A DNA stretch of 64,000 bases from a virus. This document shows, piece by piece, positions 39,176-50,380 of the stretch (its first letter is position 1; each line of letters begins with the position of its first letter). The notes below the pieces were generated by a model that saw only the letters and a program-made list of their open reading frames with translations, did no database searches and was not told the DNA's origin. The position numbers and the translations under genes were made by a program. The stretch spans positions 105,967 through 169,966 of IMG/VR virus record IMGVR_UViG_3300047089_000244. The stretch is one strand, 5' to 3'.

Positions 39176-39197
39176 ATTATCGCGCCCGTAAGTAAAG

Positions 39198-39266
39198 TCG
39201 CTCGTGCAGGAATCGAACCTGCGCCTGAAGATTATGATTCTCCTTGGCACCCATAGCCTACGAGCG
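39198..39266 (-). tRNA. tRNA-Met(CAT)
   Basis: Acceptor CGCTCGT/ACGAGCG (7 bp), anticodon stem GGAGA/TCTTC, loop ATCATAA, T-loop TTCGATT. Discriminator A, no encoded CCA. No C1:A72 mismatch, so elongator Met or (if modified) Ile-AUA reader. Last RNA gene of the array in transcription order. Confidence 0.85.
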
Positions 39267-39412
39267 TGGATTTCACCTACCGCTTGCACGGATCATCGGC
39301 TACTCAATGTAACACGCCGTCTACGTACTCCCTAATCCGGGGTGCGGTACGTAGCAAGGACAACGTGAGTTAGGTTCGATCCTCCGCTGTCGCAAAGCGG
39401 TACGTAACCATA

Positions 39413-39484
39413 AGCGTATAGCCGGGCTCGAACCGGCGACCCAAGCTTGGAAGGCTTGTGTGTTACCAACTACACTATACACGC
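39413..39484 (-). tRNA. tRNA-Gly(TCC)
   Basis: Acceptor GCGTGTA/TATACGC, anticodon stem CAAGC/GCTTG, loop CTTCCAA, T-loop TTCGAGC. No CCA encoded. Starts 5 bases after the stop of the Pth2 gene. Confidence 0.9.
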
Positions 39485-39489
39485 ATAAA

Positions 39490-39942
39490 CTACTTACGCA
39501 AGAAAAACTTGTGCCTTTTAGACCCTCTGTAACCCGTATCTGGGAGACCACCAGGGGTCATTTTCATCTCAGGATTTTTCTCTCGGTAGAGTTTGAACTC
39601 CTGAAACGTCGCTGCCGTGTGAGGATCGTCGCGATCTACAACCTCGACGCCAAGCGCTGTGACTGAGTGAGGGCGGATCTCCGTGTGACCCTCATCGATG
39701 ATGAGCTTCGTCTTGAAGCCTCGCTCCTCGATATAGTGCTTGATTACCATCAGGTGCATGTCATCCTCTGCCAGCATCACGAGCTTGCAGTAGTGACCGC
39801 CCTTGTACCAATCTGCAAGCAGATTGGGGTCGCTGATCCGGTACGCCTCGACGGCTGCATGCTGCCCCTGAGCAGTCATCTTGCCCGAGGTCATTCCGAG
39901 ACTTCTATTGATGAAGCTATACATGGCTGTTCGCATGCACAT
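39490..39942 (-). CDS. pth2: Peptidyl-tRNA hydrolase, Pth2 type
   Basis: 150 aa (possible later starts at codons 3 or 7). Residues 14-150 follow the Pth2 fold: an N-terminal RSLGMTSGKMTAQGQHAAVE (the Gly-Lys-x-x-Ala-Gln-x-x-His-Ala catalytic helix), a beta strand HYCKLVMLAED, helix and LIIDEGHTEIRPHSVTALGV, equivalent to DAGxTxI.PGS.TVLgi. Pth2 frees tRNA from peptidyl-tRNA that drops off the ribosome. It is the archaeal/eukaryotic form, also found in actinobacteria and other bacteria. Embedded in the phage tRNA array between tRNA-Gly and tRNA-Thr, so a role in tRNA recycling is strongly suggested by context. Confidence 0.8.
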   Translation of the reverse strand: MCMRTAMYSFINRSLGMTSGKMTAQGQHAAVEAYRISDPNLLADWYKGGHYCKLVMLAEDDMHLMVIKHYIEERGFKTKLIIDEGHTEIRPHSVTALGVEVVDRDDPHTAATFQEFKLYREKNPEMKMTPGGLPDTGYRGSKRHKFFLRK

Positions 39943-39956
39943 AGTCTATCACAGAG

Positions 39957-40027
39957 GCTTGCGCGGTGGGAACACTTCGGACTTTGGTCCTACTGACCGC
40001 AGTCTCACTCGCGTTCACCGCGCAAGC
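39957..40027 (-). ncRNA. 71-nt structured element with 12-bp closing stem
   Basis: GCTTGCGCGGTG pairs perfectly with CACCGCGCAAGC across 47 bases; an inner GGAC-TTTG-GTCC hairpin is present. It lies in the leader of the Pth2 gene. Similar motifs TGATACACTACG and TGATAGACTATG flank it. Could be a 5' UTR regulator, a processing signal or an independent small RNA. Confidence 0.5.
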
Positions 40028-40157
40028 TGTCTCCGAGCAGGGTCTCCGCTGAACGAACGTAGTGTATCACAAGTGCGCCCGCCCAGTTTGACCCAGACGC
40101 GCGCATGAGGACCCGAGGTCACCCAGCCGAACTGAATATGCCCGAAGCTAAGGTCCA

Positions 40158-40229
40158 AGCCTACACTCAGAATCGAACTGAGTTCTCTAGTTTACAAGAC
40201 TAGCGCGTCACCACTTACGCTTTGCAGGC
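40158..40229 (-). tRNA. tRNA-Thr(TGT)
   Basis: Acceptor GCCTGCA/TGTAGGC, anticodon stem CTAGT/ACTAG, loop CTTGTAA, T-loop TTCGATT. Its 5' end lies about 4-6 bases from the 3' end of the RNase P RNA. No CCA encoded. Confidence 0.9.
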
Positions 40230-40232
40230 ACA

Positions 40233-40579
40233 TCATGTAGTCGATAAGCCGGATTCTGTCGTTGGACGATCATCCTTCTCAGTGGCGTGCCGACTAGGCC
40301 CAACGACCCTTTGGCGCTTGAGCTAACCCGAGGTCTCACACGATTCCACTGGTCCCCATGTTACCGGGGACTGCTCCCACCAGCTAATGCCATAGGCAGA
40401 GCCCTTAGGCTTCGACACTTGGGATTGCATCTCTCGGCTTCGTATGCGGTCATAGCGGCCTAAGCCTCCCGCCATCCACGTCACCTATCCAGCACCCCTT
40501 GTGAGGGATCTGAGTTTCCCCAGACGAGATGTCCGGACTTTCCTCGGAGGGATCGGACCTCCGCGATCGTCTGACTACA
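40233..40579 (-). ncRNA. rnpB: RNase P RNA (rnpB), phage-encoded
   Basis: About 347 nt on the minus strand. P1 is TGTAGTC/GACTACA; P2 GACGATC/GATCGTC; P3 hairpin CGGAGG/CCTCCG. The universal 5' block GAGGAAAGTCCGGAC (CR-I, 5' strand of P4) and the universal 3' block CGACAGAATCCGGCTTATCG (CR-V, 3' strand of P4) are both intact and spaced as in bacterial RNase P. A CR-II-like AGAGATGCAATCCC and a strong GTCCCC/GGGGAC stem lie between. It should be the ribozyme that removes tRNA 5' leaders, probably using the host protein subunit. It is transcribed with the tRNAs it would process and is flanked by a tRNA-like element (5') and tRNA-Thr (3'). Confidence 0.95.
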
Positions 40580-40580
40580 G

Positions 40581-40679
40581 GATCATGATGGGATTCGAAC
40601 CCACACCTGGGCACTCGCCTCTGCCAATTGATCCACTTACAGAGTTCCGTACGCTTCTGCAAGCAGGCCCTACATGATC
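40581..40679 (-). ncRNA. tRNA-like element, irregular, upstream of RNase P RNA
   Basis: 99 nt. Perfect 7-bp acceptor GATCATG/CATGATC and a normal T-arm (GTGGG, TTCGAAT, CCCAT). The middle does not give a canonical D and anticodon arm; a D-loop-like AATTGGCAGAG sits where a variable arm should be. No anticodon can be assigned. It may be a decayed class II tRNA or a processing signal for the RNase P RNA 5' end, which begins 2 bases later. Confidence 0.5.
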
Positions 40680-40773
40680 ACCAAGCTTTCTCAGTCGCAC
40701 CCTGACACAACTCGACCCGCCAGAGGCGGGCCGGAAGTGAGGGAACGACCCTCGAACGACTTTCAAGCACTTG

Positions 40774-40826
40774 TTATATAGCAGGAATCGAACCCGCTAA
40801 GGGATATCCTTAGATAATCTTTAGAA
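40774..40826 (-). pseudogene. 3' fragment of a tRNA
   Basis: Good T-arm (GCGGG, TTCGATT, CCTGC) and a 3' acceptor strand TATATAA, but no matching 5' strand upstream and no normal D-arm; the next element begins immediately. Probably a remnant. Confidence 0.5.
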
Positions 40827-40827
40827 A

Positions 40828-40917
40828 CGGTACCGTGGGGATTCGAACCCAACCGCCTCGTTAGAGCGATTTCCCGCTTGAAAGGCGTTCTGCACTCCAA
40901 AGTGCTTTCATGGTACC
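40828..40917 (-). tRNA. tRNA of uncertain isotype, 89 nt
   Basis: Acceptor GGTACCA/CGGTACC (6 of 7 pairs), T-loop TTCGAAT. The anticodon region CGCCTTTCAAGCGGG gives only three good pairs in any register: TTC (Glu) or CAA (Leu) are the best readings. Long region before the T-arm with a 4-bp stem (CGCT/GGCG) suggests class II. Possibly degenerate. Confidence 0.45.
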
Positions 40918-40934
40918 CTGTGGTCGAACAGGTG

Positions 40935-41297
40935 TCAAGAGCCGTGTGTACGCTCCCGGTGGCAGTTCGAGCAAACGACCTCGCACTTGTCGATCTCCTC
41001 CTGGATAACTTCCAGGCGATATCGTTGTGCTACGAGCCAATTGACACTGCCAAACTTCTCCCCACGTACATGATCGAAGTCCATGACGTAGGGCGGATAC
41101 TGGACCCCGCAGTCGGCACAAGGAACTTCCTTTTGCGCGTTGATGTGCGCCATGATCTCAGCACGTTTGTTTGCCGCCCAGGTGTTGCGCTTGATCTTCC
41201 ACTCGGATAGCTGGTGCTCCGCGAGGTAGCGATCCTTGTTGCGCTGGTAACTCCGTTGTTGAGCGGCGCGCTGCTTGCCTTTGTCCTTGTACGGCAT
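40935..41297 (-). CDS. HNH homing endonuclease in tRNA array
   Basis: 120 aa from the ATG at 41297 (MPYKDKGKQRAAQQRSYQRN). Zinc-type HNH domain: CADCGVQYPPYVMDFDHVRG, then CEVVCSNCHRERT, with the DFDH and NCH catalytic/metal residues. Basic helical N-terminus. It lies between tRNA-Gly(GCC) and an irregular tRNA; the reading frame stays open back through the upstream tRNA. Such genes spread by cutting intergenic sites near tRNAs. Confidence 0.8.
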   Translation of the reverse strand: MPYKDKGKQRAAQQRSYQRNKDRYLAEHQLSEWKIKRNTWAANKRAEIMAHINAQKEVPCADCGVQYPPYVMDFDHVRGEKFGSVNWLVAQRYRLEVIQEEIDKCEVVCSNCHRERTHGS

Positions 41298-41329
41298 GCA
41301 CATTACACACCAGGATGGGTTCACTTCCA

Positions 41330-41402
41330 AGCAGCAGATGGGACTCGAACCCACAACCTCCACCTTGGCAAGGTGGCGCTCTAGCCATTGAGCTACTACT
41401 GC
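41330..41402 (-). tRNA. tRNA-Gly(GCC)
   Basis: Acceptor GCAGTAG/CTGCTGC, anticodon stem CCACC/GGTGG, loop TTGCCAA, T-loop TTCGAGT. No CCA encoded. Confidence 0.92.
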
Positions 41403-41607
41403 GCGTGCGACTCGTTTCTTCGCGAGGAGAGTCACCATCCCCGTCCATTTTTATCCGCCCTACGCTTCGCTTGTCCCCGGAGGGGCGGGTTTCAAACCGC
41501 GCTTATCGTGTATATGGGCCTTCTACGAAGTGAGTAGCTCATCACGAACGGGACGCGCGAAGGTCGTCGTGAACTTCCTCCAGCAATGACCGCATTATGA
41601 GCTAAGT

Positions 41608-41631
41608 CCCCCGTGCTGGAGTCGAACCAGC
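41608..41631 (-). pseudogene. 3' end remnant of a tRNA-Arg-like gene
   Basis: T-arm GCTGG, TTCGACT, CCAGC followed by ACGGGGG and ACT, nearly the same as the 3' end of the intact tRNA-Arg(TCG) at 42,108. No 5' half nearby; the HNH gene at 41.6-42.2 kb lies between the two copies. Confidence 0.55.
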
Positions 41632-41634
41632 CTA

Positions 41635-42189
41635 CTATGAGCTTCCACGATGCCATCTCATTGTAAGTCCAGGCACCGAAGAAATGCAAGCTCGCCAGTA
41701 ACCACCCACAAAGGCCGTTCGTTTCCGATGGCAGTTCGAACAGAGCACATCGCACTTGGCAATCTCAGTTTCTATCGTTGGCACATCGTAACCTGATGCA
41801 GTCATGTCAGACACCGCAGCAACCTTCTGACTGGGGTCGCGATGATCAAAGTCAAGCACAACCGGATCAGACTCGCCACAATTGATACAGGGATGCTTTT
41901 GAAGGTAGTCCCAAATCCATGCTTGCGCGCGCTCCTGAACAATCCTTTTGCGAGCTTTCGTCCTTGCTTTGATACGATCCTTGTTCCGTAAATAGTGCGC
42001 GTCTGAAACGATCTTCTGACATGCTTTACAGTGAGCTTGATGTTTGTCGCCTTTGGTAGCAAACTCTTTGAGTGGCTTCTCAAGTTCGCATTTACCGCAG
42101 ATCTTAGTCCCCCCGGCTGGAATCGAACCAGCGACGGTCGTGGATTCGAAGTCCACCGCTCTGTCCTCTGAGCTACGAAGGGTTGTCAT
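41635..42189 (-). CDS. HNH endonuclease, frame open through a tRNA gene
   Basis: The body (from about 42,105) has an N-terminal CGKCELEKPLKEFA...CKACQ ribbon, a basic helix and an HNH domain: CINCGESDPVVLDFDHRDPS, then CDVLCSNCHRKRT. The only in-frame ATGs lie at 42,189 or upstream, so the ORF reads through the whole tRNA-Arg(TCG) gene. Either the start codon is unusual, or the protein is made from a transcript where the tRNA is not excised, or the gene is decaying. Listed end uses the ATG at 42,189. Confidence 0.65.
   Translation of the reverse strand: MTTLRSSEDRAVDFESTTVAGSIPAGGTKICGKCELEKPLKEFATKGDKHQAHCKACQKIVSDAHYLRNKDRIKARTKARKRIVQERAQAWIWDYLQKHPCINCGESDPVVLDFDHRDPSQKVAAVSDMTASGYDVPTIETEIAKCDVLCSNCHRKRTAFVGGYWRACISSVPGLTMRWHRGSS
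42108..42182 (-). tRNA. tRNA-Arg(TCG)
   Basis: Acceptor CCCTTCG/CGGGGGG (two G-U pairs), anticodon stem GTGGA/TCCAC, loop CTTCGAA, T-loop TTCGATT. Directly followed by the HNH coding body. No CCA encoded. Confidence 0.88.
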
Positions 42190-42218
42190 ACCTATTATCA
42201 TCGCGTATTGACTTCGAA

Positions 42219-42401
42219 TCAGGCATGAGGTTCGAAGTCCCACCAACGTCGCATAGTTTCAAGAGCGACCTCGGCAATATCTCGATATTCGTCACGGACC
42301 TCTTCGTGCGCTTCGAGCCAAGGTATAGCTCGCGCAGAAAAGTCTTTCTCCTCAGCCTCATAAATGGCTTGAGCTACTCGCTCTATCAATTTCGTCTCCA
42401 T
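42219..42401 (-). CDS. Small acidic protein, unknown function
   Basis: 60 aa (METKLIERVAQAIYEAEEKD...RWWDFEPHA). Helical. Resembles small phage proteins of the pattern IxxVAxAIYxA, but function is unknown. Sits between tRNA-Lys and tRNA-Arg. Confidence 0.55.
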   Translation of the reverse strand: METKLIERVAQAIYEAEEKDFSARAIPWLEAHEEVRDEYRDIAEVALETMRRWWDFEPHA

Positions 42402-42445
42402 TTAGATTCGAAGTCTCAGGTCCTCATCCGTAGGACAGGGGAAGG

Positions 42446-42520
42446 ACTCCTGGCTGTTTGCGACAGCATCTCCCACTTAAAAGGCGGGGCTCTATTGCAG
42501 GCACTTTGAGCTACAGGAGG
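42446..42520 (-). tRNA. tRNA-Lys(TTT), divergent copy
   Basis: Acceptor CCTCCTG/CAGGAGT (6 of 7), D-arm AGCTC/GAGC with long loop, anticodon stem CCCGC/GTGGG, loop CTTTTAA. The T-arm has loop TCGCAAA rather than TTCGANN and one stem mismatch. A canonical tRNA-Lys(TTT) exists at 49,220, so this may be a specialised or decaying second copy. Confidence 0.65.
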
Positions 42521-42522
42521 AG

Positions 42523-42595
42523 TGGGTCGTCCCGGACTCGAACCGGGAATTGTCTCCTTAAGAGGGAGGTGCTCTTACCATTTAGCTAACGACCC
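42523..42595 (-). tRNA. tRNA-Lys(CTT)
   Basis: Acceptor GGGTCGT/ACGACCC, loop CTCTTAA, T-loop TTCGAGT, T-stem CCCGG/CCGGG. No CCA encoded. Confidence 0.9.
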
Positions 42596-42704
42596 AAAAA
42601 CCCCGGCTCTCACGGTCACGCACACGAGCCGCTTATCAGGCGACGCTCGCATACCATCCCGGTTCCACCGGGTCTGGGAACCGCATTTCGGTTCCGAGGC
42701 TTAG

Positions 42705-42777
42705 TCCCCTTGACTGGATTTGAACCAGTGACTTCCTCCTTCGCAGGGAGGCACTCTATCCACTGAGCTACAAGGAG
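42705..42777 (-). tRNA. tRNA-Arg(GCG)
   Basis: Acceptor CTCCTTG/CAAGGGG, anticodon stem CCTCC/GGAGG, loop CTGCGAA, T-loop TTCAAAT. A G34 anticodon for CGC/CGU is unusual in bacteria, where inosine-modified ACG normally reads this box. Confidence 0.88.
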
Positions 42778-42844
42778 AGGTAAAGCGAGTATTTAGCGCC
42801 CTCGCTCACGGCTGTCTCTAGCATGGCCAATGGCCAAAGCCAGA

Positions 42845-43450
42845 TCATCTTGAAAACTTGTTTTCCTGCCAATCATGCAAGAGCGTATACTCATACGAGC
42901 TTGGATCACCACCGATAATCAAATCAAAGAGGACTGGTCTTACGTCCTTCAAGCTTTCGATCAGATGGTCAGCAATATCGCACTCCGCCTTTGTGAGATA
43001 TGGAGCAATAGATTTGTTGCTCTGCCCGTCTCGGAGATGTAAGGCTCGGTGCCAGCCGATACAGGCCGGGATCGTGCAATAGGACCGAGGTGCATAGTTG
43101 ATGTAGTCCGGAAGCTCCAGCATCAACCAACGTGGCACAAAATGGTGCCGTGTGATGGCACCTTCGCAATCCTTCGGCTCGTCGTGGTAGCGACAAACTA
43201 AAGGGCGCTGCGTAGCTAGGGCGCGAGCCTTCTTCTGTTCGATGATCTTGTGCGGTATCAGTCCGCTATTGTGATTGAGTCGCCAGAGTACAGCACGGGT
43301 AGAGAGACGTTCATCAAGAAGATCATCGATCTCCGCGTCCTCCATTTCCGCAAGCACTTCTAGCTGCTCAACAGTAGCTTCTGAGTCATAGGAATCGAAC
43401 CAAAAGACCTCTCCCGTGACAGGATGTGTCCAGTCTCGTGCTCGTGACAT
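42845..43450 (-). CDS. Possible HNH-like protein, unknown function
   Basis: 201 aa. The middle reads CEGAITRHHFVPRWLMLELP, then YCTIPACIGWHRALHLRDG, a His-His...Cys...His spacing that resembles a divergent HNH/beta-beta-alpha-metal site. N-terminal acidic helices; a C-terminal alpha part. Its place among tRNA genes and endonuclease genes supports a mobile-element origin, but activity is unproven. Confidence 0.5.
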   Translation of the reverse strand: MSRARDWTHPVTGEVFWFDSYDSEATVEQLEVLAEMEDAEIDDLLDERLSTRAVLWRLNHNSGLIPHKIIEQKKARALATQRPLVCRYHDEPKDCEGAITRHHFVPRWLMLELPDYINYAPRSYCTIPACIGWHRALHLRDGQSNKSIAPYLTKAECDIADHLIESLKDVRPVLFDLIIGGDPSSYEYTLLHDWQENKFSR

Positions 43451-43487
43451 ACCTATAGTATACAGGGTATGTCAAGGTTCGAAAAAG

Positions 43488-43562
43488 TAGCCCGTGCGGG
43501 ATTCGAACCCGCGTTCACGCGGCCTGAGAAGCCGGTATCCTAAACCACTAGACCAACGGGCC
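43488..43562 (-). tRNA. tRNA-Glu(CTC)
   Basis: Acceptor GGCCCGT/ACGGGCT, anticodon loop TTCTCAG with four stem pairs, T-arm GCGGG, TTCGAAT, CCCGC. No CCA encoded. Confidence 0.88.
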
Positions 43563-43567
43563 ATAAA

Positions 43568-43620
43568 GCTATCTGGGCGAGGTACGGATCTATTGAGAAT
43601 CCGCTGTCATTCCAGATAGC
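43568..43620 (-). ncRNA. Structured spacer between tRNAs
   Basis: GCTATCTGG/CCAGATAGC, a 9-bp stem enclosing an inner CGGAT/ATCCG hairpin, placed exactly between tRNA-Glu(CTC) and tRNA-Ile(TAT). Could guide processing. Confidence 0.45.
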
Positions 43621-43623
43621 AAG

Positions 43624-43696
43624 TACTCCTCCCAGGACTCGAACCTGGAACCATTCGCATATAAGACGAAAGCTCTAACCATTGAGCTAGAGGAGC
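43624..43696 (-). tRNA. tRNA-Ile(TAT)
   Basis: Acceptor GCTCCTC/GAGGAGT, anticodon stem TTCGT/GCGAA, loop CTTATAT, T-loop TTCGAGT. Reads AUA directly, avoiding the lysidine route most bacteria need. Confidence 0.88.
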
Positions 43697-43706
43697 ATGC
43701 GGCCCC

Positions 43707-44066
43707 TCACAAGGAGGGACCGTTAATTGCTTCACAGGTGCTAGACAGCAAACGGGGCGTTTGTTCCTTGAACTTTTCGCCTCCGTAAGATGTTTCATTG
43801 TGAGACTGACTCGACCAGGTTATTTCACCACCCCGATACGGTTTTCTCTGATACCATTCTTCCCAGTACCACGGATACCGGCGGGCCGGGATGGGTACAG
43901 AATAGGGCTGAGGTACTGGCCTTGAAGCCAACTCCGCCTTGAGTAAACGAATACAGTCATCGGTTGTCGGGTCCTTGCCGTGACTATGCCACGAGAGCCC
44001 ACAAATAGAGCAAATCGTTGAAACGGCGATTGGCTCAGGTTTTGTTAATTTCTTTCGTGCTGCCAT
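43707..44066 (-). CDS. Small protein with Cys pair, unknown function
   Basis: 119 aa. VSTICSICGLSWHSHGKDPT gives CxxC...H, followed by a Pro/Tyr/Trp-rich segment (YPWYWEEWYQRKPYRGGEIT). Similar short CSxCxxxxxxH motifs occur in phage hypotheticals. Unknown. Confidence 0.5.
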   Translation of the reverse strand: MAARKKLTKPEPIAVSTICSICGLSWHSHGKDPTTDDCIRLLKAELASRPVPQPYSVPIPARRYPWYWEEWYQRKPYRGGEITWSSQSHNETSYGGEKFKEQTPRLLSSTCEAINGPSL

Positions 44067-44301
44067 GATTTTCTACAGAGAGGCCCGAAGACATTTCACC
44101 GCGATTGACTCGTTTTTCGGTCATTCCACCCCAAACATGACCTCGTGCAGAATCGAGTGCTTTACCCGCTGACGAAGTGGTCATATTCAATGCTTGACCA
44201 ATCTGGGGAACCGTATTACCATCAAAGTACATCTTGAAGGCTTCGTATTCCGTCGCGTTGAGACAGTACACAGCTTCTATGTCTTGCCTCCCCATTTTCA
44301 T
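44035..44301 (-). CDS. HTH DNA-binding protein
   Basis: 88 aa. Residues about 14-50 (LNATEYEAFKMYFDGNTVPQ, then IGQALNMTTSSAGKALDSAR) match a LuxR/sigma-4-type helix-turn-helix. C-terminus polar. Probably a small regulator; overlaps the next gene by 32 bases. Confidence 0.6.
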   Translation of the reverse strand: MKMGRQDIEAVYCLNATEYEAFKMYFDGNTVPQIGQALNMTTSSAGKALDSARGHVWGGMTEKRVNRGEMSSGLSVENHGSTKEINKT

Positions 44302-44335
44302 CCTCCTTTAGGACGTTTTGGTTTGAGTACTACAG

Positions 44336-44408
44336 GGTGGCCAGAGGGAATCGAACCCTCATCGCCGGGATCACAACCCGGAGTTCTAACCGTTGAACTA
44401 TGGTCACC
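44336..44408 (-). tRNA. tRNA-His(GTG)
   Basis: Acceptor GTGACCA/TGGCCAC with an encoded G-1 opposite C73, the His identity pair. Anticodon stem CCGGG/CCCGG, loop TTGTGAT, T-loop TTCGATT. Confidence 0.92.
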
Positions 44409-44411
44409 ATG

Positions 44412-44507
44412 ATGCGCCAGAGAAGACGCGACCCTCCTGTCCTTCGGCTCGGGGGCCTGTGCTAGCACAACCCACTGTCCGCTGCTCCGCTCTGAGCTAC
44501 TGGCGCA
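44412..44507 (-). ncRNA. tRNA-like element, class II-sized, irregular
   Basis: Acceptor TGCGCCAG/CTGGCGCA (8 bp), D-stem GCTC/GAGC, T-arm-like GAGGG, TCGCGTC, TTCTC. The middle forms TGTGC/GCACA with a 2-base loop rather than a normal anticodon arm; a GCT triplet lies there. The same 8-bp acceptor recurs as a small hairpin at 46,403. Confidence 0.45.
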
Positions 44508-44581
44508 TATCCCCTCTCGGATTCGAACCGAGACTGTACTGGGCTTAAACCAGTTCCCTCTGCCAGTTGGAGTAAGGGGAC
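44508..44581 (-). tRNA. tRNA with TAA anticodon (Leu), short variable loop
   Basis: Acceptor GTCCCCT/AGGGGAT, anticodon stem ACTGG/CCAGT, loop TTTAAGC, T-loop TTCGAAT. The variable loop is only 5 bases, whereas bacterial Leu tRNAs have a long arm; the other Leu tRNAs in this array do. Confidence 0.85.
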
Positions 44582-44588
44582 AAGATAG

Positions 44589-44659
44589 ATGGAGAACAGG
44601 GATTCGAACCCCGATTGAGAGCTTCAAAGGCTCCGGTCTTGCCATTAGACGATTCTCCA
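44589..44659 (-). tRNA. tRNA-Gln(TTG)
   Basis: Acceptor TGGAGAA/TTCTCCA, anticodon stem GGAGC/GCTCT, loop CTTTGAA, T-loop TTCGAAT. Shares its acceptor and D-arm with tRNA-Gln(CTG) 80 bases away; recent duplication likely. Confidence 0.9.
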
Positions 44660-44662
44660 AAG

Positions 44663-44735
44663 TAATCGGCGCGGATATCCACGGGTTAGGGGGCGAGAAC
44701 CTAATCTCTTGCGCTAAACCGCCTTGTACCGATTA
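44663..44735 (-). ncRNA. tRNA-like cloverleaf without T-loop consensus
   Basis: Perfect 7-bp closing stem TAATCGG/CCGATTA, 73 nt. Inner stems TTAGG/CCTAA and CGTGG/CCGCG (with a G-U pair that only works on this strand). No TTCGA and no 7-base anticodon loop. Lies between the two Gln tRNAs. Confidence 0.4.
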
Positions 44736-44736
44736 G

Positions 44737-44807
44737 CTGGAGAACAGGGACTCGAACCCCAATGACAACGCTCAGAACGTTGCATCTTGCCATTAGATGA
44801 TTCTCCA
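44737..44807 (-). tRNA. tRNA-Gln(CTG)
   Basis: Acceptor TGGAGAA/TTCTCCA, anticodon stem CAACG/CGTTG, loop TTCTGAG, T-loop TTCGAGT. No CCA encoded. Confidence 0.9.
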
Positions 44808-44814
44808 AAGTACA

Positions 44815-44887
44815 TAGCAGACCCGAGAATCGAACTCGGCTCTCAAGCTTATGGGGCTCGAATGGTCGTCCAGACCACCTGTCTGCA
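44815..44887 (-). tRNA. tRNA-Met(CAT), second copy
   Basis: Six-bp acceptor GCAGAC/GTCTGC with an unpaired first position, anticodon stem CGAGC/GCTTG, loop CCCATAA, T-arm CCGAG, TTCGATT, CTCGG. C instead of U at position 33. The open 1:72 pair recalls initiators, but the three G-C pairs of fMet are absent; may alternatively be an AUA-reading Ile. Confidence 0.75.
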
Positions 44888-44889
44888 AA

Positions 44890-44973
44890 TGCCCACCGGG
44901 AGATTCGAACTCCCACACCTTTTCAGATAGCGCCTTTTGAGGACGCCGCGTCTACCATTCCAGCCAGGTGGGC
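44890..44973 (-). tRNA. tRNA-Leu(CAA)
   Basis: Acceptor GCCCACC/GGTGGGC, anticodon stem GCGTC/GGCGC, loop CTCAAAA, long variable arm (CTATCTGAAAAGGTG), T-loop TTCGAAT. Confidence 0.9.
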
Positions 44974-45040
44974 GTATTTATGATAATTGCCTTGTGCACG
45001 CGAGGCAAATTTTTCCGAGGCGGGACTTCCTTCCTCAGAA

Positions 45041-45112
45041 TTGGAATACTAGGACTCGAACCTAGAATACCACCGTATCAGAGTGGCGTGATAACCATTT
45101 CACTATATTCCA
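45041..45112 (-). tRNA. tRNA-Ile(GAT)
   Basis: Acceptor TGGAATA/TATTCCA, anticodon stem CCACT/GGTGG, loop CTGATAC, T-loop TTCGAGT. Five stem pairs are satisfied only in this register. Confidence 0.88.
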
Positions 45113-45113
45113 G

Positions 45114-45185
45114 CGGATCTGAGAGGAATCGAACCTCTGACGCGCGGTTCTTCAAACCGCCGCTCTACCCCTGAGCTACAGATCC
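45114..45185 (-). tRNA. tRNA-Phe(GAA)
   Basis: Acceptor GGATCTG/CAGATCC, anticodon stem GCGGT/ACCGC, loop TTGAAGA, T-loop TTCGATT. Confidence 0.92.
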
Positions 45186-45189
45186 AGGG

Positions 45190-45441
45190 TTACTTCTTGA
45201 CACGAGTAATCTCCTCAAGGTCGTCATAAAGCTTAGGTAGGTTCTCCTCGAACGCACACTCTAAGCATTTGCCAATCTTGGGCAAAGCTCTCTTTGTACA
45301 ACCCGATTCACTACAAACGCCGGGCCTCATGAATTGTGGGATGTTAATATCTTCTTCATTCATTTTGCGTATCCTGAAAAGGTAAAAAAGTAAGATAGCC
45401 CCTCCTAGAAGGAGCCCTTGTTTCATATACCCAGTCATCAC
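45190..45441 (-). CDS. Small membrane-anchored Cys protein
   Basis: 83 aa. One transmembrane helix at residues about 7-22 (GLLLGGAILLFYLF), then a soluble part with four cysteines (VCSESGC...GKCLEC), probably a zinc site. Unknown function. Confidence 0.55.
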   Translation of the reverse strand: MMTGYMKQGLLLGGAILLFYLFRIRKMNEEDINIPQFMRPGVCSESGCTKRALPKIGKCLECAFEENLPKLYDDLEEITRVKK

Positions 45442-45488
45442 TCGTTATACAACGGGTGATGCAAGAAAATGAGCGGAAGGTGAAGGAG

Positions 45489-45845
45489 TCAAGGATTAGG
45501 AGAACGACTACTATTGCAACGCAAGTGAGAGAAAGCAATGTTCTCCATATCCCAAAACAAATCCGCATCGACACCCAACCAAGATTGCTTATGCTCAATA
45601 CTTAAATCAGATTCATTCTCAATGATCCCTCCGCAATGAAAGCAAACATTCCGATCGGTATCACAAACGAGCATAAAAAGAACCTTCTTGCGCAATCTAT
45701 GCGCTGCGGTGCCCCATGGCATACCCAACTGTTCCGCCTTCTTCAGGTGGCTTTTCGACGGAATCACCGTCCCGTCAGCCTTACGTTCCTTGTAACGACG
45801 TGCATTATATTTACGCACGGCCTCTTTATCCCTGGATACGGGCAT
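45489..45845 (-). CDS. HNH homing endonuclease
   Basis: 118 aa from the ATG at 45,845 (MPVSRDKEAVRKYNARRYKE). Basic N-terminal helix with YNARRYKE, then CFHCGGIIENESDLSIEHKQ and NIAFSHLRCNSSRS, giving the H-N-H core with two Cys pairs. Located 20 bases after tRNA-Ser(TGA). Confidence 0.8.
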   Translation of the reverse strand: MPVSRDKEAVRKYNARRYKERKADGTVIPSKSHLKKAEQLGMPWGTAAHRLRKKVLFMLVCDTDRNVCFHCGGIIENESDLSIEHKQSWLGVDADLFWDMENIAFSHLRCNSSRSPNP

Positions 45846-45864
45846 ACGGAATAGTATATCATAA

Positions 45865-45948
45865 CGGAAGCGTAGAGAGTCGAACTCTAGAGGGCTCATC
45901 ACCCCAGGCGGGTTCAAACCGCTGTCCTCAGCCAACCGGATCACTTCC
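45865..45948 (-). tRNA. tRNA-Ser(TGA)
   Basis: Acceptor GGAAGTG/CGCTTCC, anticodon GCGG/CCGC with loop TTTGAAC, long variable arm (GGGGTGATGAGCCC), T-loop TTCGACT. Confidence 0.9.
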
Positions 45949-45956
45949 AAGGGGGT

Positions 45957-45988
45957 CCGTCCGAGAGCCTTGTTCAGGCCGGGGACGG
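45957..45988 (-). ncRNA. Hairpin between tRNA-Cys and tRNA-Ser
   Basis: CCGTCC/GGACGG closes an inner GCCT/AGGC stem-loop. One of several strong hairpins between tRNAs. Confidence 0.4.
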
Positions 45989-46006
45989 CTGCCCCGTTGA
46001 GTTGAG

Positions 46007-46077
46007 ACGCGACGGCGAGAATTGAACTCGCGTAGGCGGGTTTGCAATCCGCTGGATGGCCTCTATCCTACGTCGCG
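46007..46077 (-). tRNA. tRNA-Cys(GCA)
   Basis: Acceptor CGCGACG/CGTCGCG, anticodon stem GCGGA/CCCGC with A31:C39 mismatch, loop TTGCAAA, T-loop TTCAATT. Confidence 0.88.
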
Positions 46078-46083
46078 ATGAAG

Positions 46084-46154
46084 CTGGAAGGCTCGGACTC
46101 GAACCGAGAATACCTGGTTAACGGCCAGGTGTGATGCCATTTCACTACCAACCA
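46084..46154 (-). tRNA. tRNA-Asn(GTT)
   Basis: Anticodon stem CCTGG/CCAGG, loop CCGTTAA (C at position 33), D-stem GTGA/TCAC, T-loop TTCGAGT. Acceptor TGGTTGG/CCTTCCA has two T-T mismatches. Confidence 0.82.
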
Positions 46155-46159
46155 ATGTT

Positions 46160-46303
46160 GTACTGGTACGCCTCGGCTACTTATTGTCGGTTTCGTGTAG
46201 GTACGAGATCCGAGTTGACCGACCTCTCGGTCGAGCTATCGACTTACCACCCGTCACCCGTGTACACATCCAGCTTGGGCCGGGAATGACCTACGACCAG
46301 TAC
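46160..46303 (-). ncRNA. 144-nt structured element with 8-bp closing stem
   Basis: GTACTGGT/ACCAGTAC closes a region with a CGACC-GAGA-GGTCG hairpin (GNRA tetraloop). No tRNA T-loop and no ORF. Lies between tRNA-Asn and tRNA-Ser(GCT). Candidate unknown RNA. Confidence 0.45.
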
Positions 46304-46313
46304 GGTACTACAG

Positions 46314-46399
46314 CGGAAGGGGTGGGATTCGAACCCACGGTGGCTCTCGCCACACTGCCTTAGCGGGGCAGCACAATAATCCATCTCTGCCACCCTTCC
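46314..46399 (-). tRNA. tRNA-Ser(GCT)
   Basis: Acceptor GGAAGGG/CCCTTCC, anticodon stem CTGCC/GGCAG, loop CCGCTAA (C33), long variable arm (GTGGCGAGAGCCAC), T-loop TTCGAAT. Confidence 0.9.
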
Positions 46400-46402
46400 A
46401 GG

Positions 46403-46436
46403 TGCGCCAGTGTCAGTTGATCCATAGCCTGGCGCA
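46403..46436 (-). ncRNA. Small hairpin with tRNA-like stem
   Basis: TGCGCCAG/CTGGCGCA around an 18-base loop. The 8-bp stem is identical to the acceptor of the tRNA-like element at 44,412. Confidence 0.4.
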
Positions 46437-46482
46437 TCCACAGTTATGGCCGCTTGCTTTCCCTGCATGCTGGTACTTGCAA

Positions 46483-46557
46483 AGCCCCTAGCGGGATTCG
46501 AACCCACGCAGTGCATCGCTTAGGAAGCGACCGCTCTATCCTCTGAGCTATAAGGGC
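46483..46557 (-). tRNA. tRNA-Arg(CCT)
   Basis: Acceptor GCCCTTA/TAGGGGC, anticodon stem GTCGC/GCGAT, loop TTCCTAA, T-loop TTCGAAT. Confidence 0.9.
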
Positions 46558-46560
46558 ATA

Positions 46561-46706
46561 CTATCGGCGAGGGAAACGAGGAGCACCCGTATCTTTAGTA
46601 ATTGACTTAAAGATTTTCGCCACAAATGTTAAAACTATAAATAGCCAAAGAAAATAGAACACTAGGCATGTGATACCTACTATTAGTAGTATCAAAAAAG
46701 CGACAT
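46561..46706 (-). pseudogene. Small membrane protein with frameshift at a T run
   Basis: ATG at 46,706 follows AAAGGAAAAC, reads MSLF and meets TGA after six T. In the -1 frame it continues as LILLIVGITCLVFYFLWLFI...RFPRR to a TAG at 46,561, a typical one-helix membrane protein of about 48 aa. One more T would restore the frame: sequencing or assembly slip, mutation, or programmed slippage. Confidence 0.5.
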
Positions 46707-46733
46707 GTTTTCCTTTGGTTGGGGTGCAAAAAG

Positions 46734-47079
46734 TGGACCATCCCGGAATCGAACCGGGGTCTTGTTGTGATTATCGATCTAGCTATCTAGCATCTTGGGA
46801 CAGGCTTGGCCCGTCTCCACCACTCGGTTTATGTCCGAGAACATACTGCTTTCGCGGGGTGCTACCATGAGCACTTTCTGTTCCTAGGTATGTGCTCCTA
46901 CCCGGCGCTGGCGATTAAGCCAGAGCGAGATGTGTCTCGCGTGCCGTGAAGCTTCCATCAAGGAAGCTTGCCGGAATAGCGAGAGTATCATCATTGCCAG
47001 TTATGGCTTGTGCGATTTAGGTGTCGCAACCGATGCACTAGAGGGACTCTCGGGCAACAATCGAATACCCATATGGCCC
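46734..47079 (-). ncRNA. ssrA: tmRNA (ssrA), phage-encoded
   Basis: 346 nt. Ends pair as a tRNA-like domain: 5' GGGCCAT with 3' ATGGTCC, T-arm CCCGG, TTCGATT, CCGGG, and a 5' GTATTCGATTG D-loop-like part. At 81 bases from the 5' end, after a GGTTGCGA/TCGCA pseudoknot-like region, CATAACT precedes an open frame starting GGC AAT GAT GAT. It runs 27 codons (46,998 to TAA at 46,915-46,917). The peptide begins GNDDTLAIPAS and ends ARETHLALA. The stop lies in the loop of a CTGGC/GCCAG hairpin, as in known tmRNAs. Role: frees stalled ribosomes and tags the nascent protein. The long tag differs from host-type ALAA tags. Discriminator A, no CCA encoded. Confidence 0.85.
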
Positions 47080-47108
47080 ATGTACCTGCCACGAATCGGG
47101 CAACAATC
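47049..47108 (-). repeat. 13-bp direct repeat at the tmRNA 5' end
   Basis: TCGGGCAACAATC occurs once inside the tmRNA 5' end and once about 46 bases further upstream (plus-strand order). One copy forms part of the mature RNA; the other lies in its leader. May compete in folding or reflect a duplication. Confidence 0.5.
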
Positions 47109-47159
47109 CCTATCCGCAGGTCCTACAGGGGAGGGAATCCCATCCTGTAGCTGATGCTT

Positions 47160-47189
47160 GCGGGCGAGGCTAGATAGCACCTCGCCCGC
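47160..47189 (-). ncRNA. Strong GC hairpin upstream of tmRNA
   Basis: GCGGGCGAGG/CCTCGCCCGC, 10 perfect pairs with a 10-base loop, about 80 bases before the tmRNA 5' end. No T run on either side, so not a plain terminator; may be a processing signal. Confidence 0.45.
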
Positions 47190-47245
47190 CGACATTACTC
47201 GACTGACTCAGTACTGCTGGATCACCCCCTAAGTTGAAAGGACAA

Positions 47246-47321
47246 GACACCTAAGGCAGGTACGCCTCCTCGGTTCTAGAAACCGAGCACCCTTACATCT
47301 TGTGGTGACGTTTAAGGTGTC
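47246..47321 (-). ncRNA. tRNA-like cloverleaf with CTA in the central loop
   Basis: 76 nt, acceptor GACACCT/AGGTGTC, three inner arms: CACC/GGTG, TCGGT/ACCGA with loop TTCTAGA, and AGGC/GCCT. If the centre is an anticodon it would be CTA (amber). The T-loop TTCGA and the D-loop GG are absent, so a functional suppressor tRNA is doubtful. Confidence 0.4.
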
Positions 47322-47323
47322 AG

Positions 47324-47395
47324 TGGACGATCAGGGTATCGATCCCCGTACCTCCCGCCTGTCAAACGGGTGCTCTCCCATTGAGCTAATCGTCC
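47324..47395 (-). tRNA. tRNA-Val(GAC)
   Basis: Acceptor GGACGAT/ATCGTCC, anticodon stem CCCGT/GCGGG, loop TTGACAG, T-loop ATCGATA (atypical first base). Confidence 0.85.
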
Positions 47396-47534
47396 TAGCC
47401 CCCATCGCGTCTGTTCGCTCCCATGGAGCTACTAAGACCATAGGTACTAGGGCAAACCCCAGGACTACTAATGATATACTAATGATGGACCGACATGATG
47501 GGCCTTACCCCACCCGGCCTAGACATCCACCAAG

Positions 47535-47608
47535 TGCTCGATGAAGGAATCGAACCTTCGACACGTTGGGTGTAAACCAACTGCTCTAAACCACTGAGCT
47601 AATCGAGC
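47535..47608 (-). tRNA. tRNA-Val(TAC)
   Basis: Acceptor GCTCGAT/ATCGAGC, anticodon stem GTTGG/CCAAC, loop TTTACAC, T-loop TTCGATT. Confidence 0.92.
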
Positions 47609-47752
47609 ATACAAAAACCGCCCTCTCCTTGCTTCAAAAAGCTCAGAGAGTATTGTCATCTCCGCTGCTCACGGAGTTTGCAGGGCTGAGCAGTTCCCCT
47701 GGCGATAGTGAGTTGGCAGTCAGTCCACAACCCTAACAAGGGTGTGCTGTAC

Positions 47753-47773
47753 CTAGCTGTTCACCACAGCTAG
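47753..47773 (-). ncRNA. Hairpin abutting tRNA-Asp 3' end
   Basis: CTAGCTGT/ACAGCTAG (8 bp, 5-base loop) starts one base after the tRNA-Asp discriminator, a position where it could block or direct 3' processing. Confidence 0.45.
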
Positions 47774-47845
47774 CGATTCCACGGGGGATCGAACCCCGAC
47801 TTGCTCCTGGACAGGGAGCCGTGATGGCCATTTCACTATGGAACC
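47774..47845 (-). tRNA. tRNA-Asp(GTC)
   Basis: Acceptor GGTTCCA/TGGAATC, anticodon stem GCTCC/GGAGC, loop CTGTCCA, T-arm CGGGG, TTCGATC, CCCCG. Confidence 0.9.
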
Positions 47846-47849
47846 AAGG

Positions 47850-47887
47850 GTCTGGCATTGCGGGAGTCTATCCACCGGAAGCCAGAC
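47850..47887 (-). ncRNA. Hairpin between tRNA-Trp and tRNA-Asp
   Basis: GTCTGGC/GCCAGAC closing 24 bases. Part of the spacer-hairpin series. Confidence 0.35.
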
Positions 47888-47937
47888 AGTAACGTCTACA
47901 GGTCATGACTCCCGTAGTTTGCGAGACTAATTCGCAG

Positions 47938-48006
47938 CGGGGCGAGAAGGAATTGAACCCTCGCCTGCGGGTTTGGAATCCGCTTGGTCACCATGACCTT
48001 CACCCC
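47938..48006 (-). tRNA. tRNA-Trp(CCA)
   Basis: Acceptor GGGGTGA/TCGCCCC, anticodon stem GCGGA/CCCGC (A31:C39), loop TTCCAAA, T-loop TTCAATT, short D-loop. Its 5' 7 bases overlap the 3' end of the small ORF upstream. Confidence 0.88.
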
Positions 48007-48206
48007 ATGTGTACTAAAGCTTTTCTCCTTTGCAGATCCCGATACAGTGCTGTCCGGAACTTTGTAAACCAGTTCGGATCATCAGGATCGTAAGCTTCGA
48101 GCGCCGCTTGGTTCGCGGCAGCGAAAACGTGCGGTTGTAGCTCCTCCTGCTTGAGAGGACGGTTCAAATATCTCAACGGTAGTAGTTCCGATACCATGCG
48201 AATCAC
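48000..48206 (-). CDS. Small helical protein, unknown function
   Basis: 68 aa (MIRMVSELLPLRYLNRPLKQ...RKALVHMG). Helical with PDDPNWFTKFRTALYRDLQR. Its stop overlaps the tRNA-Trp 5' end. Unknown. Confidence 0.5.
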   Translation of the reverse strand: MIRMVSELLPLRYLNRPLKQEELQPHVFAAANQAALEAYDPDDPNWFTKFRTALYRDLQRRKALVHMG

Positions 48207-48214
48207 TATACCAA

Positions 48215-48286
48215 AGCCAACACTCGGAGTCGAACCGAGTTTCCACGCTTACGAAGCGCGTGCATCGCCGTCAATGCTTTGCTGGC
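48215..48286 (-). tRNA. tRNA-Thr(CGT)
   Basis: Acceptor GCCAGCA/TGTTGGC, anticodon stem CGCGC/GCGTG, loop TTCGTAA, T-loop TTCGACT. Confidence 0.9.
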
Positions 48287-48290
48287 ACAA

Positions 48291-48372
48291 GAAGCAACCC
48301 GTCCTGAGGACGCCGAAGGGACTCAGCCGCGTCCACGACAGGACTCACGTCCCTTTATTCGTGTGTTACTTC
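48291..48372 (-). ncRNA. 82-nt rod-like structured element
   Basis: Closing stem GAAGTAAC/GTTGCTTC (one G-U), then GTCCTG/CAGGAC and GGACGC/GCGTCC nested inside. Fills the space between two tRNA-Thr genes. No T-loop, no ORF. Confidence 0.45.
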
Positions 48373-48374
48373 TA

Positions 48375-48446
48375 AGCCTACACTCAGAATCGAACTGAGG
48401 ATGCTCGCATACCAAGCGAGTGTGATACCACTTACACTATGTAGGC
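48375..48446 (-). tRNA. tRNA-Thr(GGT)
   Basis: Acceptor GCCTACA/TGTAGGC, anticodon stem CTCGC/GCGAG, loop TTGGTAT, T-loop TTCGATT. Confidence 0.92.
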
Positions 48447-48451
48447 ACGAA

Positions 48452-48506
48452 GGTCCGGTAGCATACCCACTGTCGTCACAGTATAGGGCAGAGGCTTGAC
48501 CGGACC
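48452..48506 (-). ncRNA. 55-nt structured element
   Basis: GGTCCGGT/ACCGGACC (8 bp) closes an inner ACTGT-GACG-ACAGT hairpin. Another spacer of the same design. Confidence 0.45.
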
Positions 48507-48580
48507 GTACAACAGCCTCTCTATGAGAGGGCGCTCCGTCCGCGATCCCTCTACCGGGGGCCGACCGAGCAATCTTTGAG

Positions 48581-48654
48581 TCAGGATAGGAGGATTTGAA
48601 CCTCCGACCTCTCCCATCCGAGGGGAGCGCTCTACCAAGCTGAGCCATACCCTG
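48581..48654 (-). tRNA. tRNA-Pro(CGG)
   Basis: Acceptor CAGGGTA/TATCCTG, anticodon stem CTCCC/GGGAG, loop CTCGGAT, T-loop TTCAAAT. Confidence 0.9.
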
Positions 48655-48743
48655 ATGCGACCGGCTGCGATCTACTGGTTGTTACACCAGGTCTGCACGG
48701 TCACGCGACCAAGACAGGGCATTGCCGAAGTCCAAATCGCTAG

Positions 48744-48838
48744 TGCGCCTGATGGGATTTGAACCCACATCCGTCGGTGTGAAAAACCGATGCTGGGGAC
48801 AGGTTATGAAGCTGCCTCTACCATTCAGCTACAGACGC
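48744..48838 (-). tRNA. tRNA-Glu(TTC) with about 20-nt insertion
   Basis: Acceptor GCGTCTG/CAGGCGC, D-stem GCTG/CAGC, anticodon stem TCGGT/ACCGA, loop TTTTCAC, T-loop TTCAAAT. Between the D-stem and the anticodon stem, where one base is normal, about 20 extra bases occur (TTCATAACCTGTCCCCAGCA). All other parts are canonical. Confidence 0.75.
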
Positions 48839-48938
48839 TAGTTGTGCTCCCTACCGTTTGAGCCGGAAAACCGATCGCAGAACGGCTCGCCTGGGTTTAC
48901 CCTAATCTCCGGAAGCACAGAGAGATGGCGAAACTACA

Positions 48939-49013
48939 TCGGGATGGCCGGATTCGAACCGACGATCGCCCGCTTCCAAGGCGGCCATGTTAACCAGACT
49001 ACACCACATCCCG
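48939..49013 (-). tRNA. tRNA-Pro(TGG)
   Basis: Acceptor CGGGATG/CATCCCG, four pairs in the anticodon stem, loop CTTGGAA, T-loop TTCGAAT. Confidence 0.85.
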
Positions 49014-49048
49014 TGGTTCCCTAGTCCGTGCTGAGCGGACGAAGGGAG

Positions 49049-49120
49049 TGGAGGACAGGGGAGTCGAACCCCTAACTCTGCCGTGCAAAAGCAGTGTGTT
49101 CCCATTAGCACCAGTCCCCC
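49049..49120 (-). tRNA. tRNA-Ala(TGC)
   Basis: Acceptor GGGGGAC/GTCCTCC with G3-U70, the alanine identity pair; anticodon stem CTGCT/GGCAG, loop TTTGCAC, T-loop TTCGACT. Confidence 0.92.
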
Positions 49121-49219
49121 TGGTGAAATCCGCAGGCTCGGCTCGCGGACTGAGTACAATCTGGGCGCTCTCATCCCATCTCATATGTTTACGGGCTGCC
49201 GATTCAGACCGTCCTACAG

Positions 49220-49291
49220 TGCCTCCGTGGGGAATCGAACCCCAGCTTACCGATTAAAAGTCGGTGGGTCTACCACTAACCATACGGAGAC
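49220..49291 (-). tRNA. tRNA-Lys(TTT)
   Basis: Acceptor GTCTCCG/CGGAGGC, anticodon stem ACCGA/TCGGT, loop CTTTTAA, T-loop TTCGATT. Canonical copy. Confidence 0.92.
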
Positions 49292-49408
49292 AAGACCCAG
49301 AACAGAGCGCAGACGCTTCAAAGCGGTAAGGCTCCACATCTGCGATTACTCTGGGGTACTACCCTTCATTCATATGTGGTTTATCAAGTGCCGGAGTCAT
49401 GTCCGGAG

Positions 49409-49491
49409 TGCTGTCCGGGGGAGTCGAACCCCCATGCTCTTACGAGCGGCCGGTTCTAAGCCGACTGCGTATACCATTCCACCAGGACAGC
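49409..49491 (-). tRNA. tRNA-Leu(TAG)
   Basis: Acceptor GCTGTCC/GGACAGC, anticodon stem GTCGG/CCGGC, loop CTTAGAA, variable arm GCTCGTAAGAGC, T-loop TTCGACT. Confidence 0.92.
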
Positions 49492-49577
49492 AAATTGTCG
49501 GTCGCGATTCCTGCATCCACCGACGGTATCTCTTGAACGTGATCAAATCGCTCTCACTACCGTACTTCTTACAGGAG

Positions 49578-49661
49578 TGCGCCAGGAGGGACTTGAACCC
49601 TCACGCCCTTGCGGGCACACGGATCTGAACCGTGCTCGTCTACCGATTCCGACACTAACGC
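49578..49661 (-). tRNA. tRNA-Leu(CAG)
   Basis: Acceptor GCGTTAG/CTGGCGC, anticodon stem CACGG/CCGTG, loop TTCAGAT, variable arm GCCCGCAAGGGC, T-loop TTCAAGT. Confidence 0.92.
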
Positions 49662-49810
49662 AAATGGTTGTCCACGAGGGTTGATTATTCCCCCACTTCG
49701 CATCCACTACTAACACCAAGATCAGGTGTACTCGGGCTCTACTTGGTTACCCGTACCCAATTGCTTTCGCTTCAACTCCTCTTTCTTCCCTATCGGAAGA
49801 AGATGGACAG

Positions 49811-49893
49811 TGCGCTGAGTGGGATTCGAACCCACACGGGCCGAAGCCCACTGCCTCCTCAAGGCAGCACGTCTACCTTTCCATCACCAGCGC
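49811..49893 (-). tRNA. tRNA-Leu(GAG)
   Basis: Acceptor GCGCTGG/TCAGCGC, anticodon stem CTGCC/GGCAG, loop TTGAGGA, variable arm GGGCTTCGGCCC, T-loop TTCGAAT. Confidence 0.92.
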
Positions 49894-50071
49894 GGGATGT
49901 TTATGATAAAGTCCCGCATACGCGAGACCAATTTTTCTGAAAGACAAAGCCCTTTGGTAGGCCGGTTATGTTTGCTCCGCTGCTCAGCCAGACGCAAATT
50001 TAATCCCTGGACAATCTGAGAACTGATGCTCCCCGCGCCCCTTACCTGGAGGTCACGACCAAAAGACTTAG

Positions 50072-50157
50072 TGCGTGCCGAGAGATTCGAACTCCCATTC
50101 CAGAGACTGGAGGGTGGGTTACAGCCACCTGCGACAAACCGTATTCGCGTGACACGC
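50072..50157 (-). tRNA. tRNA-Tyr(GTA)
   Basis: Acceptor GCGTGTC/GGCACGC, anticodon stem GGTGG/CCACC, loop CTGTAAC, long variable arm (CTCCAGTCTCTGGA), T-loop TTCGAAT. Confidence 0.92.
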
Positions 50158-50162
50158 ATGAT

Positions 50163-50277
50163 ACATCAGGTCCTTGATTCCGGGCGCGATCCGACGAGCA
50201 ACTTGATCCCACGACCTTACTCGTTTCGGGACCATGCGGTATGGTTACCGCTGCACTCAAGGGTTTTGCCCTGATGT
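50163..50277 (-). ncRNA. 115-nt structured element between the first two tRNAs
   Basis: ACATCAGG/CCTGATGT closes the element; CCTTGA/TCAAGG forms a second stem inside, with a GCGGT/ACCGC hairpin and a CGAG/CTCG arm. Branched, no T-loop, no ORF. Confidence 0.5.
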
Positions 50278-50380
50278 GGAGGCGTTGGGTATGTCCTACA
50301 GCTATGAGGGACTATGTACGGTGCCTTCTGTGCCGTTCGGCAGGTACTATAGCAGATCCGAAAACCCACTTCCTGCTTAG

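Follow-up and report, generated by a model that had tools for sequence, protein, structure and literature searches.

An RNase P RNA encoded in the tRNA array of a large phage, with a probable role in phage tRNA maturation

RNase P RNA ranks among the oldest ribozymes, and its gene is regarded as a housekeeping gene of cells. In the type T RNase P RNA of the archaeon Pyrobaculum, the catalytic domain is kept and the specificity domain is lost or reduced; this RNA is archaeal and cellular, whereas the phage RNAs described here have a catalytic domain like that of bacterial class A. In fungal mitochondria, as in Candida glabrata and in yeast (RPM1), the RNase P RNA gene has tRNA genes on either side, and the RNA is freed when these tRNAs are processed, in part by its own enzyme. 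The phage RNA shares this tRNA-flanked layout and may share the self-release, but the fungal RNA is organellar, A+T-rich, and very reduced, whereas the phage that carries the present gene has dozens of tRNAs and encodes a CCA-adding enzyme. Host-type parts of translation and tRNA maturation that large phages carry include tmRNA and CCA-adding enzymes; both are present here, and neither cleaves tRNA precursors. The closest phage precedent in the literature searched is the HDV-like theta ribozyme, which adjoins phage tRNAs and has been proposed to lessen dependence on host RNases (PMC10879173). Theta ribozymes are self-cleaving, act in cis, and are proposed to process the 3' trailer (PMC10879173), whereas RNase P RNA is a trans-acting enzyme of 5' processing. 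The passages on phages and viruses in a 2024 review of RNase P make no mention of a phage-encoded RNase P RNA (PMC11143913), and in a megaphage report Rfam yielded tRNAs and a tmRNA but nothing else (PMC8172020), a result consistent with the low scores of phage RNase P RNAs. We found no published description of a phage-encoded RNase P RNA in the literature searched (subscription papers and preprints lay outside its scope).

The DNA analyzed here, called the window, is a stretch of 64,000 nucleotides that corresponds to bases 105967-169966 of the linear 169,966-base viral record IMGVR_UViG_3300047089_000244. Profile matches in the window identify genes for a portal protein (phrog_2833, 2e-156), a terminase, a tail fibre, a ribonucleotide reductase, a DnaB-type helicase, and a primase-like protein. 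The best identities of the portal, 38-41%, are to Mycobacterium, Rhodococcus, and Gordonia phages, which makes an actinobacterial host likely for this large Caudoviricetes phage. ARAGORN finds 37 tRNA genes and a tmRNA in the window. The features of the locus, several of them placed with the help of two related viral contigs, L034 and L048, are listed below in window coordinates; the whole arrangement lies on the minus strand, which the first-pass annotation had left implicit.

16433-20140, minus strand: 1235-aa open reading frame with a C-terminal CCA-adding tRNA nucleotidyltransferase (residues ~777-1223), from profile matches
39197-50453, minus strand: tRNA array holding the RNase P RNA, with 36 tRNAs for all 20 amino acids plus the tmRNA (ARAGORN)
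40158-40229, minus strand: tRNA-Thr(UGU), without encoded CCA, starting 6 nt after P1 (ARAGORN and Rfam)
40236-40579, minus strand: predicted body of the RNase P RNA from the P1 5' to the P1 3' strand, ~344 nt (RF00010 match and alignment with L034 and L048)
40245-40259, minus strand: CR-V, the 3' universal block (ACAGAAUCCGGCUUA), which includes the P4 3' strand UCCGGCUU at 40246-40253 (RF00010 alignment)
40531-40545, minus strand: CR-I, the 5' universal block (GAGGAAAGUCCGGAC), which includes the P4 5' strand and the bulged U (RF00010 alignment)
40546-40562, minus strand: P3 hairpin, inner pairs GGAGG/CCUCC, with two-sided compensatory changes at 3 positions across the window RNA, L034, and L048
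40565-40571, minus strand: P2 5' strand GACGAUC, pairing with GAUCGUC at 40265-40271
40573-40579, minus strand: P1 5' strand UGUAGUC, pairing with GACUACA at 40236-40242
40580-40679, minus strand: degenerate tRNA-like element, 26.8 bits against a tRNA cut-off of 29
46733-47079, minus strand: tmRNA (ARAGORN)

The first-pass annotation had claimed an RNase P RNA at this position, and the covariance model of bacterial class A RNA bears this out: RF00010 (RNaseP_bact_a) matches positions 40229-40582 on the minus strand along its full length (model positions 1-367 of 367; 56.9 bits; E=1.6e-16), and in a search of the whole 169,966-base record this element is the single match (E=5.8e-18). The score lies below the curated gathering cut-off of RF00010, which is 100 bits, and a default Rfam scan therefore omits the window RNA. 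Helices P1-P5, P15-P17, and P19 and both universal blocks are present, so that the strands of P1 to P4 and the two blocks named in the first-pass annotation were all recovered, with their helices paired. P4 is formed by CR-I and CR-V as AAG(U)CCGGA/UCCGGCUU, with the bulged U, and is invariant in the window RNA, L034, and L048. P1, P2, P3, and P5, which close the catalytic domain, all pair, P3 and P5 with two-sided changes. P15 reads UCCCA/UGGGA, with one unpaired cell in L048, and carries on its 3' strand the GGU motif, which contacts the RCC(A) at the 3' end of the tRNA. The P19 region of the window RNA is expanded. By its catalytic core, the assignment of the element to the RNase P RNA superfamily, as a phage-encoded member, is strongly supported.

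In its P1-P3, P4 with bulged U, P5, P15 with GGU, P16-P17, both universal blocks, and alignment to the whole model, the window RNA is the same as bacterial class A RNA (RF00010). It differs in its score (56.9 of 100 bits), in the specificity domain, whose conserved CR-II/CR-III joining regions were probed with an exact CR-III motif of the GGUAAGAG type that was not found, and in being phage-encoded, in a tRNA array, with no rnpA in the record. The description of the RNA as complete thus holds for the catalytic domain but not for the specificity domain, which is not canonical. The exact CR-III motif GGUAAGAG is absent from the window RNA, L034, and L048 and likewise from ~20 other phage RNAs, a crude exact-motif test with which a diverged specificity domain is still compatible; the same test finds the motif in full-size bacterial-type copies. 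With an aberrant specificity domain, the window RNA is not a complete bacterial-type RNA, and since CR-III was not found, recognition of pre-tRNA could be impaired. The best explanation is that the specificity domain has been rewired and is reduced relative to bacterial versions.

L034 and L048 score 63.4 and 46.2 bits against RF00010. When the three RNAs were aligned, 183 of 184 helix cells were paired and 16 positions showed two-sided changes, counted over P1-P5, a GAAA-capped hairpin, a second hairpin, P15, P16, P17, and P19; with three sequences only and a helix register set by hand, this covariation is supporting evidence and not a blind test. P1 (read by hand for the window and L048) has lost one base pair in L048, on both strands together, and the P17 loop of L048 carries an insertion of ~100 nt. 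The surroundings are conserved as well. Both L034 and L048 have a tRNA-Gly(GCC) directly before the RNA and a tRNA-Thr 4 nt after P1, and in all three loci tRNA or tRNA-like genes abut the RNA on both sides and on the same strand. The upstream tRNA-Gly is intact in both relatives and decayed in the window, where the tRNA-like element occupies its place; the window has a second tRNA-Gly(GCC) at 41330-41402.

What remains of the upstream tRNA is a perfect 7-bp acceptor stem (GATCATG at 40673-40679 with CATGATC at 40581-40587) and a T arm, the D and anticodon region being disrupted or lost. Its folding energy is unexceptional (z=-1.03), so that the element is recognized by its acceptor stem and T arm and not by folding energy. 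The acceptor stem ends at 40581, one base ahead of P1, slightly nearer than the 2 bases of the first-pass annotation, which had also placed the 3' end of the RNA a few bases from tRNA-Thr; that spacing is 6 nt from the P1 3' strand. We found no terminator-like site on the minus strand between the RNase P RNA and tRNA-Thr. On one reading, the tRNA-Gly remnant may have been kept as a processing signal. Farther upstream, two additional degenerate tRNA-like elements with T arms lie at 40770-40940 (minus strand), one of them with a long insert resembling a variable arm, and a promoter-like site, TTGACA-17-TACCAT, is seen at 40910-40938 on the minus strand. Two open reading frames between tRNA genes, at 40935-41438 and 41635-42246, have HNH-endonuclease-like Cys/His motifs, as in other phage tRNA arrays; the first of these has no Pfam match. 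ARAGORN also reports a tRNA-Val(CAC) at 51695-51772 on the plus strand, which has no Rfam support and is probably spurious.

CCA is not encoded in any of the 36 array tRNAs, and the phage has a gene for a CCA-adding enzyme, identified by PF01743 (1.7e-25) and phrog_2244 (1.2e-61). Its best NCBIfam match is the actinobacterial TIGR02692 (2.7e-57, below the curated cut-off of that model). The first ~775 residues of the 1235-aa protein show only a weak YunG-like match, at residues 13-107. A CCA enzyme is also encoded in both nearest relatives. RnpA was not found in the phage record, which is linear and may be incomplete, so that rnpA could sit in the missing part. Two huge phages of ~635-642 kb, L164 (LR745206.1) and L165 (LR756502.1), encode a CCA enzyme and a protein resembling RnpA (49-52 bits, which exceeds the Pfam cut-off), but in neither could an RNase P RNA be detected; an 11.4-bit RNase P match in LR756502 was dismissed as weak and inside coding-like sequence.

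The first-pass annotation had regarded an RNase P RNA in a phage as rare, but in a survey of IMG/VR it proved not to be a one-off. Two exact-motif scans and a subsequent search that required the two blocks to share a strand yielded 67 loci, two being copies of the window itself, and ~30 of the 67 lie in arrays of at least 6 tRNAs. RF00010 matched in all 36 other viral records chosen from these loci, as expected from their selection by motif, and the model scores, above the cut-off in 23, are the independent evidence; many tRNA-rich phages thus carry such an RNA. RnpA (PF00825) was found in 0 of these 36 records, 15 of which exceed 150 kb. A CCA enzyme is present in 11 of the 36, nine of those 11 being among the 15 records above 150 kb. 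The shortest RNAs, in the 171- to 191-kb viral contigs L117 and L145, measure ~209-225 nt from P1 to P1. Placement between tRNA or tRNA-like elements, kept in the two relatives of the window, recurs in unrelated phages. At 17 of 28 array loci, a tRNA starts within 24 nt of CR-V, that is, a few bases from P1. Because spacers of no more than 8 nt make up 39% of the ordinary inter-tRNA gaps of these arrays, this packing is only moderately stronger than background, and we have tempered the idea that close packing is specific to the RNase P RNA. An Acinetobacter "phage" MD-2021a contig and other hits with one tRNA or none were set aside as apparently bacterial or prophage-edge sequence. So was a record named Microcystis phage MaAM05 (L154; MW495066.1), which looks bacterial: its RNase P RNA is of the bacterial type and has fabI, engB, glyS, and mtgA as neighbors.

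Cultured phages carry the element too. Three phages of Microbacterium foliorum, A3Wally, Big4, and Zooman, have unannotated RNase P RNAs of ~214 nt between two tRNA genes. That of A3Wally (MZ150783.1) scores 72 bits (E=6.4e-22) and occupies the spacer that separates two tRNA-Pro genes, beginning immediately behind the first and stopping 4 nt short of the second; those of Big4 and Zooman are its relatives and score 51-53 bits. A CCA enzyme is encoded in all three phages, and RnpA was not found in any of them. In Sushi23, Kashi_SSH1, Finch, E3, and TinyTim, neither an RNase P RNA nor a CCA enzyme was found; this comparison of isolates is a small sample and is not corrected for kinship. RF00010 has no match in the nearby isolates Kashi_SSH1, Finch, E3, and TinyTim, so that phages of this portal lineage do not carry the element as a rule. 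In Streptomyces phage Sushi23, the interval ahead of tRNA-Thr likewise shows no RNase P match, and a blastn search of the isolates with the L034 RNA returned nothing.

Overall, we think it probable that the RNase P RNA of the window works although it is reduced, that it relies on the RnpA of the host to mature the tRNAs of the phage, and that tRNA processing frees it from the array. The RNA is probably transcribed together with the surrounding tRNAs. Its 5' end would be set by 3' processing of the upstream tRNA-like element, and its 3' end by the cut that RNase P makes in front of tRNA-Thr. Paired with host RnpA, it would act catalytically to remove the leaders of the phage tRNAs, and the CCA-adding enzyme of the phage would complete their 3' ends. 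Self-processing of the RNA, as the first-pass annotation had suggested, is plausible, and a 6-nt trailer would stay on the RNA after cleavage at tRNA-Thr.

A different role for the RNA is unlikely, namely, that it no longer processes tRNAs and instead titrates host RnpA by binding it, or serves as a structured decoy, so that tRNA maturation in the host is slowed during infection. Such a role would suit a phage in which no rnpA was found and an RNA that keeps the known RnpA-contacting elements of the catalytic domain while the motifs of substrate recognition are lost. However, P4 and both universal blocks have been kept, which are needed for catalysis and not for protein binding alone, and the location in arrays of CCA-less tRNAs alongside a CCA enzyme points to tRNA maturation. 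We give little credence to the view that the element is a decaying, functionless copy of a host rnpB acquired by the phage. The low model score, the degenerate specificity domain, the decayed neighboring tRNA, and the expanded P19 region are what such a copy might show, but the 16 two-sided compensatory changes, the conserved position in three diverged relatives, and the recurrence in many tRNA-rich phages argue against decay. It also seems very improbable that the RNA is active in a narrowed job, such as short-spacer phage pre-tRNAs or one step in the array, with host RNase P doing the rest; the motifs with which the specificity domain reads the T-loop region are missing, as in archaeal type T RNA, yet the phage tRNAs have ordinary T arms. 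Misassembly of host or contaminant sequence into the viral contig might be brought to mind by the bacterial look of certain RNase P RNA-bearing phage records in IMG/VR and GenBank (fabI, engB, and glyS in MaAM05) and by several prophage-type hits beside a single tRNA. It is rejected because L034 and L048, which are independent contigs, have the same synteny, because the window also holds genes for a portal, a terminase, and a tail, and because such an RNA is present in independently sequenced isolates.

Returning to a working RNA that serves tRNA maturation, we regard a broader version of this reading as evenly balanced. Large tRNA-rich phages may form a recurrent class equipped with a maturation kit of CCA-less tRNAs, a CCA enzyme, and an RNase P RNA, with no RnpA; the canonical specificity domain would have been lost repeatedly, down to RNAs of ~210 nt, and holoenzymes of phage RNA and host protein would process their own gene out of the array. 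If this is true, the phage versions would reveal how far a natural bacterial-type RNase P RNA can shrink, and they would explain how tRNAs are matured in phages that have dozens of them. Since phages of Microbacterium foliorum NRRL B-24224 carry such an RNA, the idea is directly testable. In two of these phages, Big4 (L157:1500-1725) and Zooman (L158:1498-1721), P4 differs from that of A3Wally on both strands, from GGAAAGUCC to GGAAGUUCC and from CCCGGCUUAC to CCCGGGCUAC, with pairing kept, and it is possible that this is a natural compensated variant of a near-universal catalytic helix.
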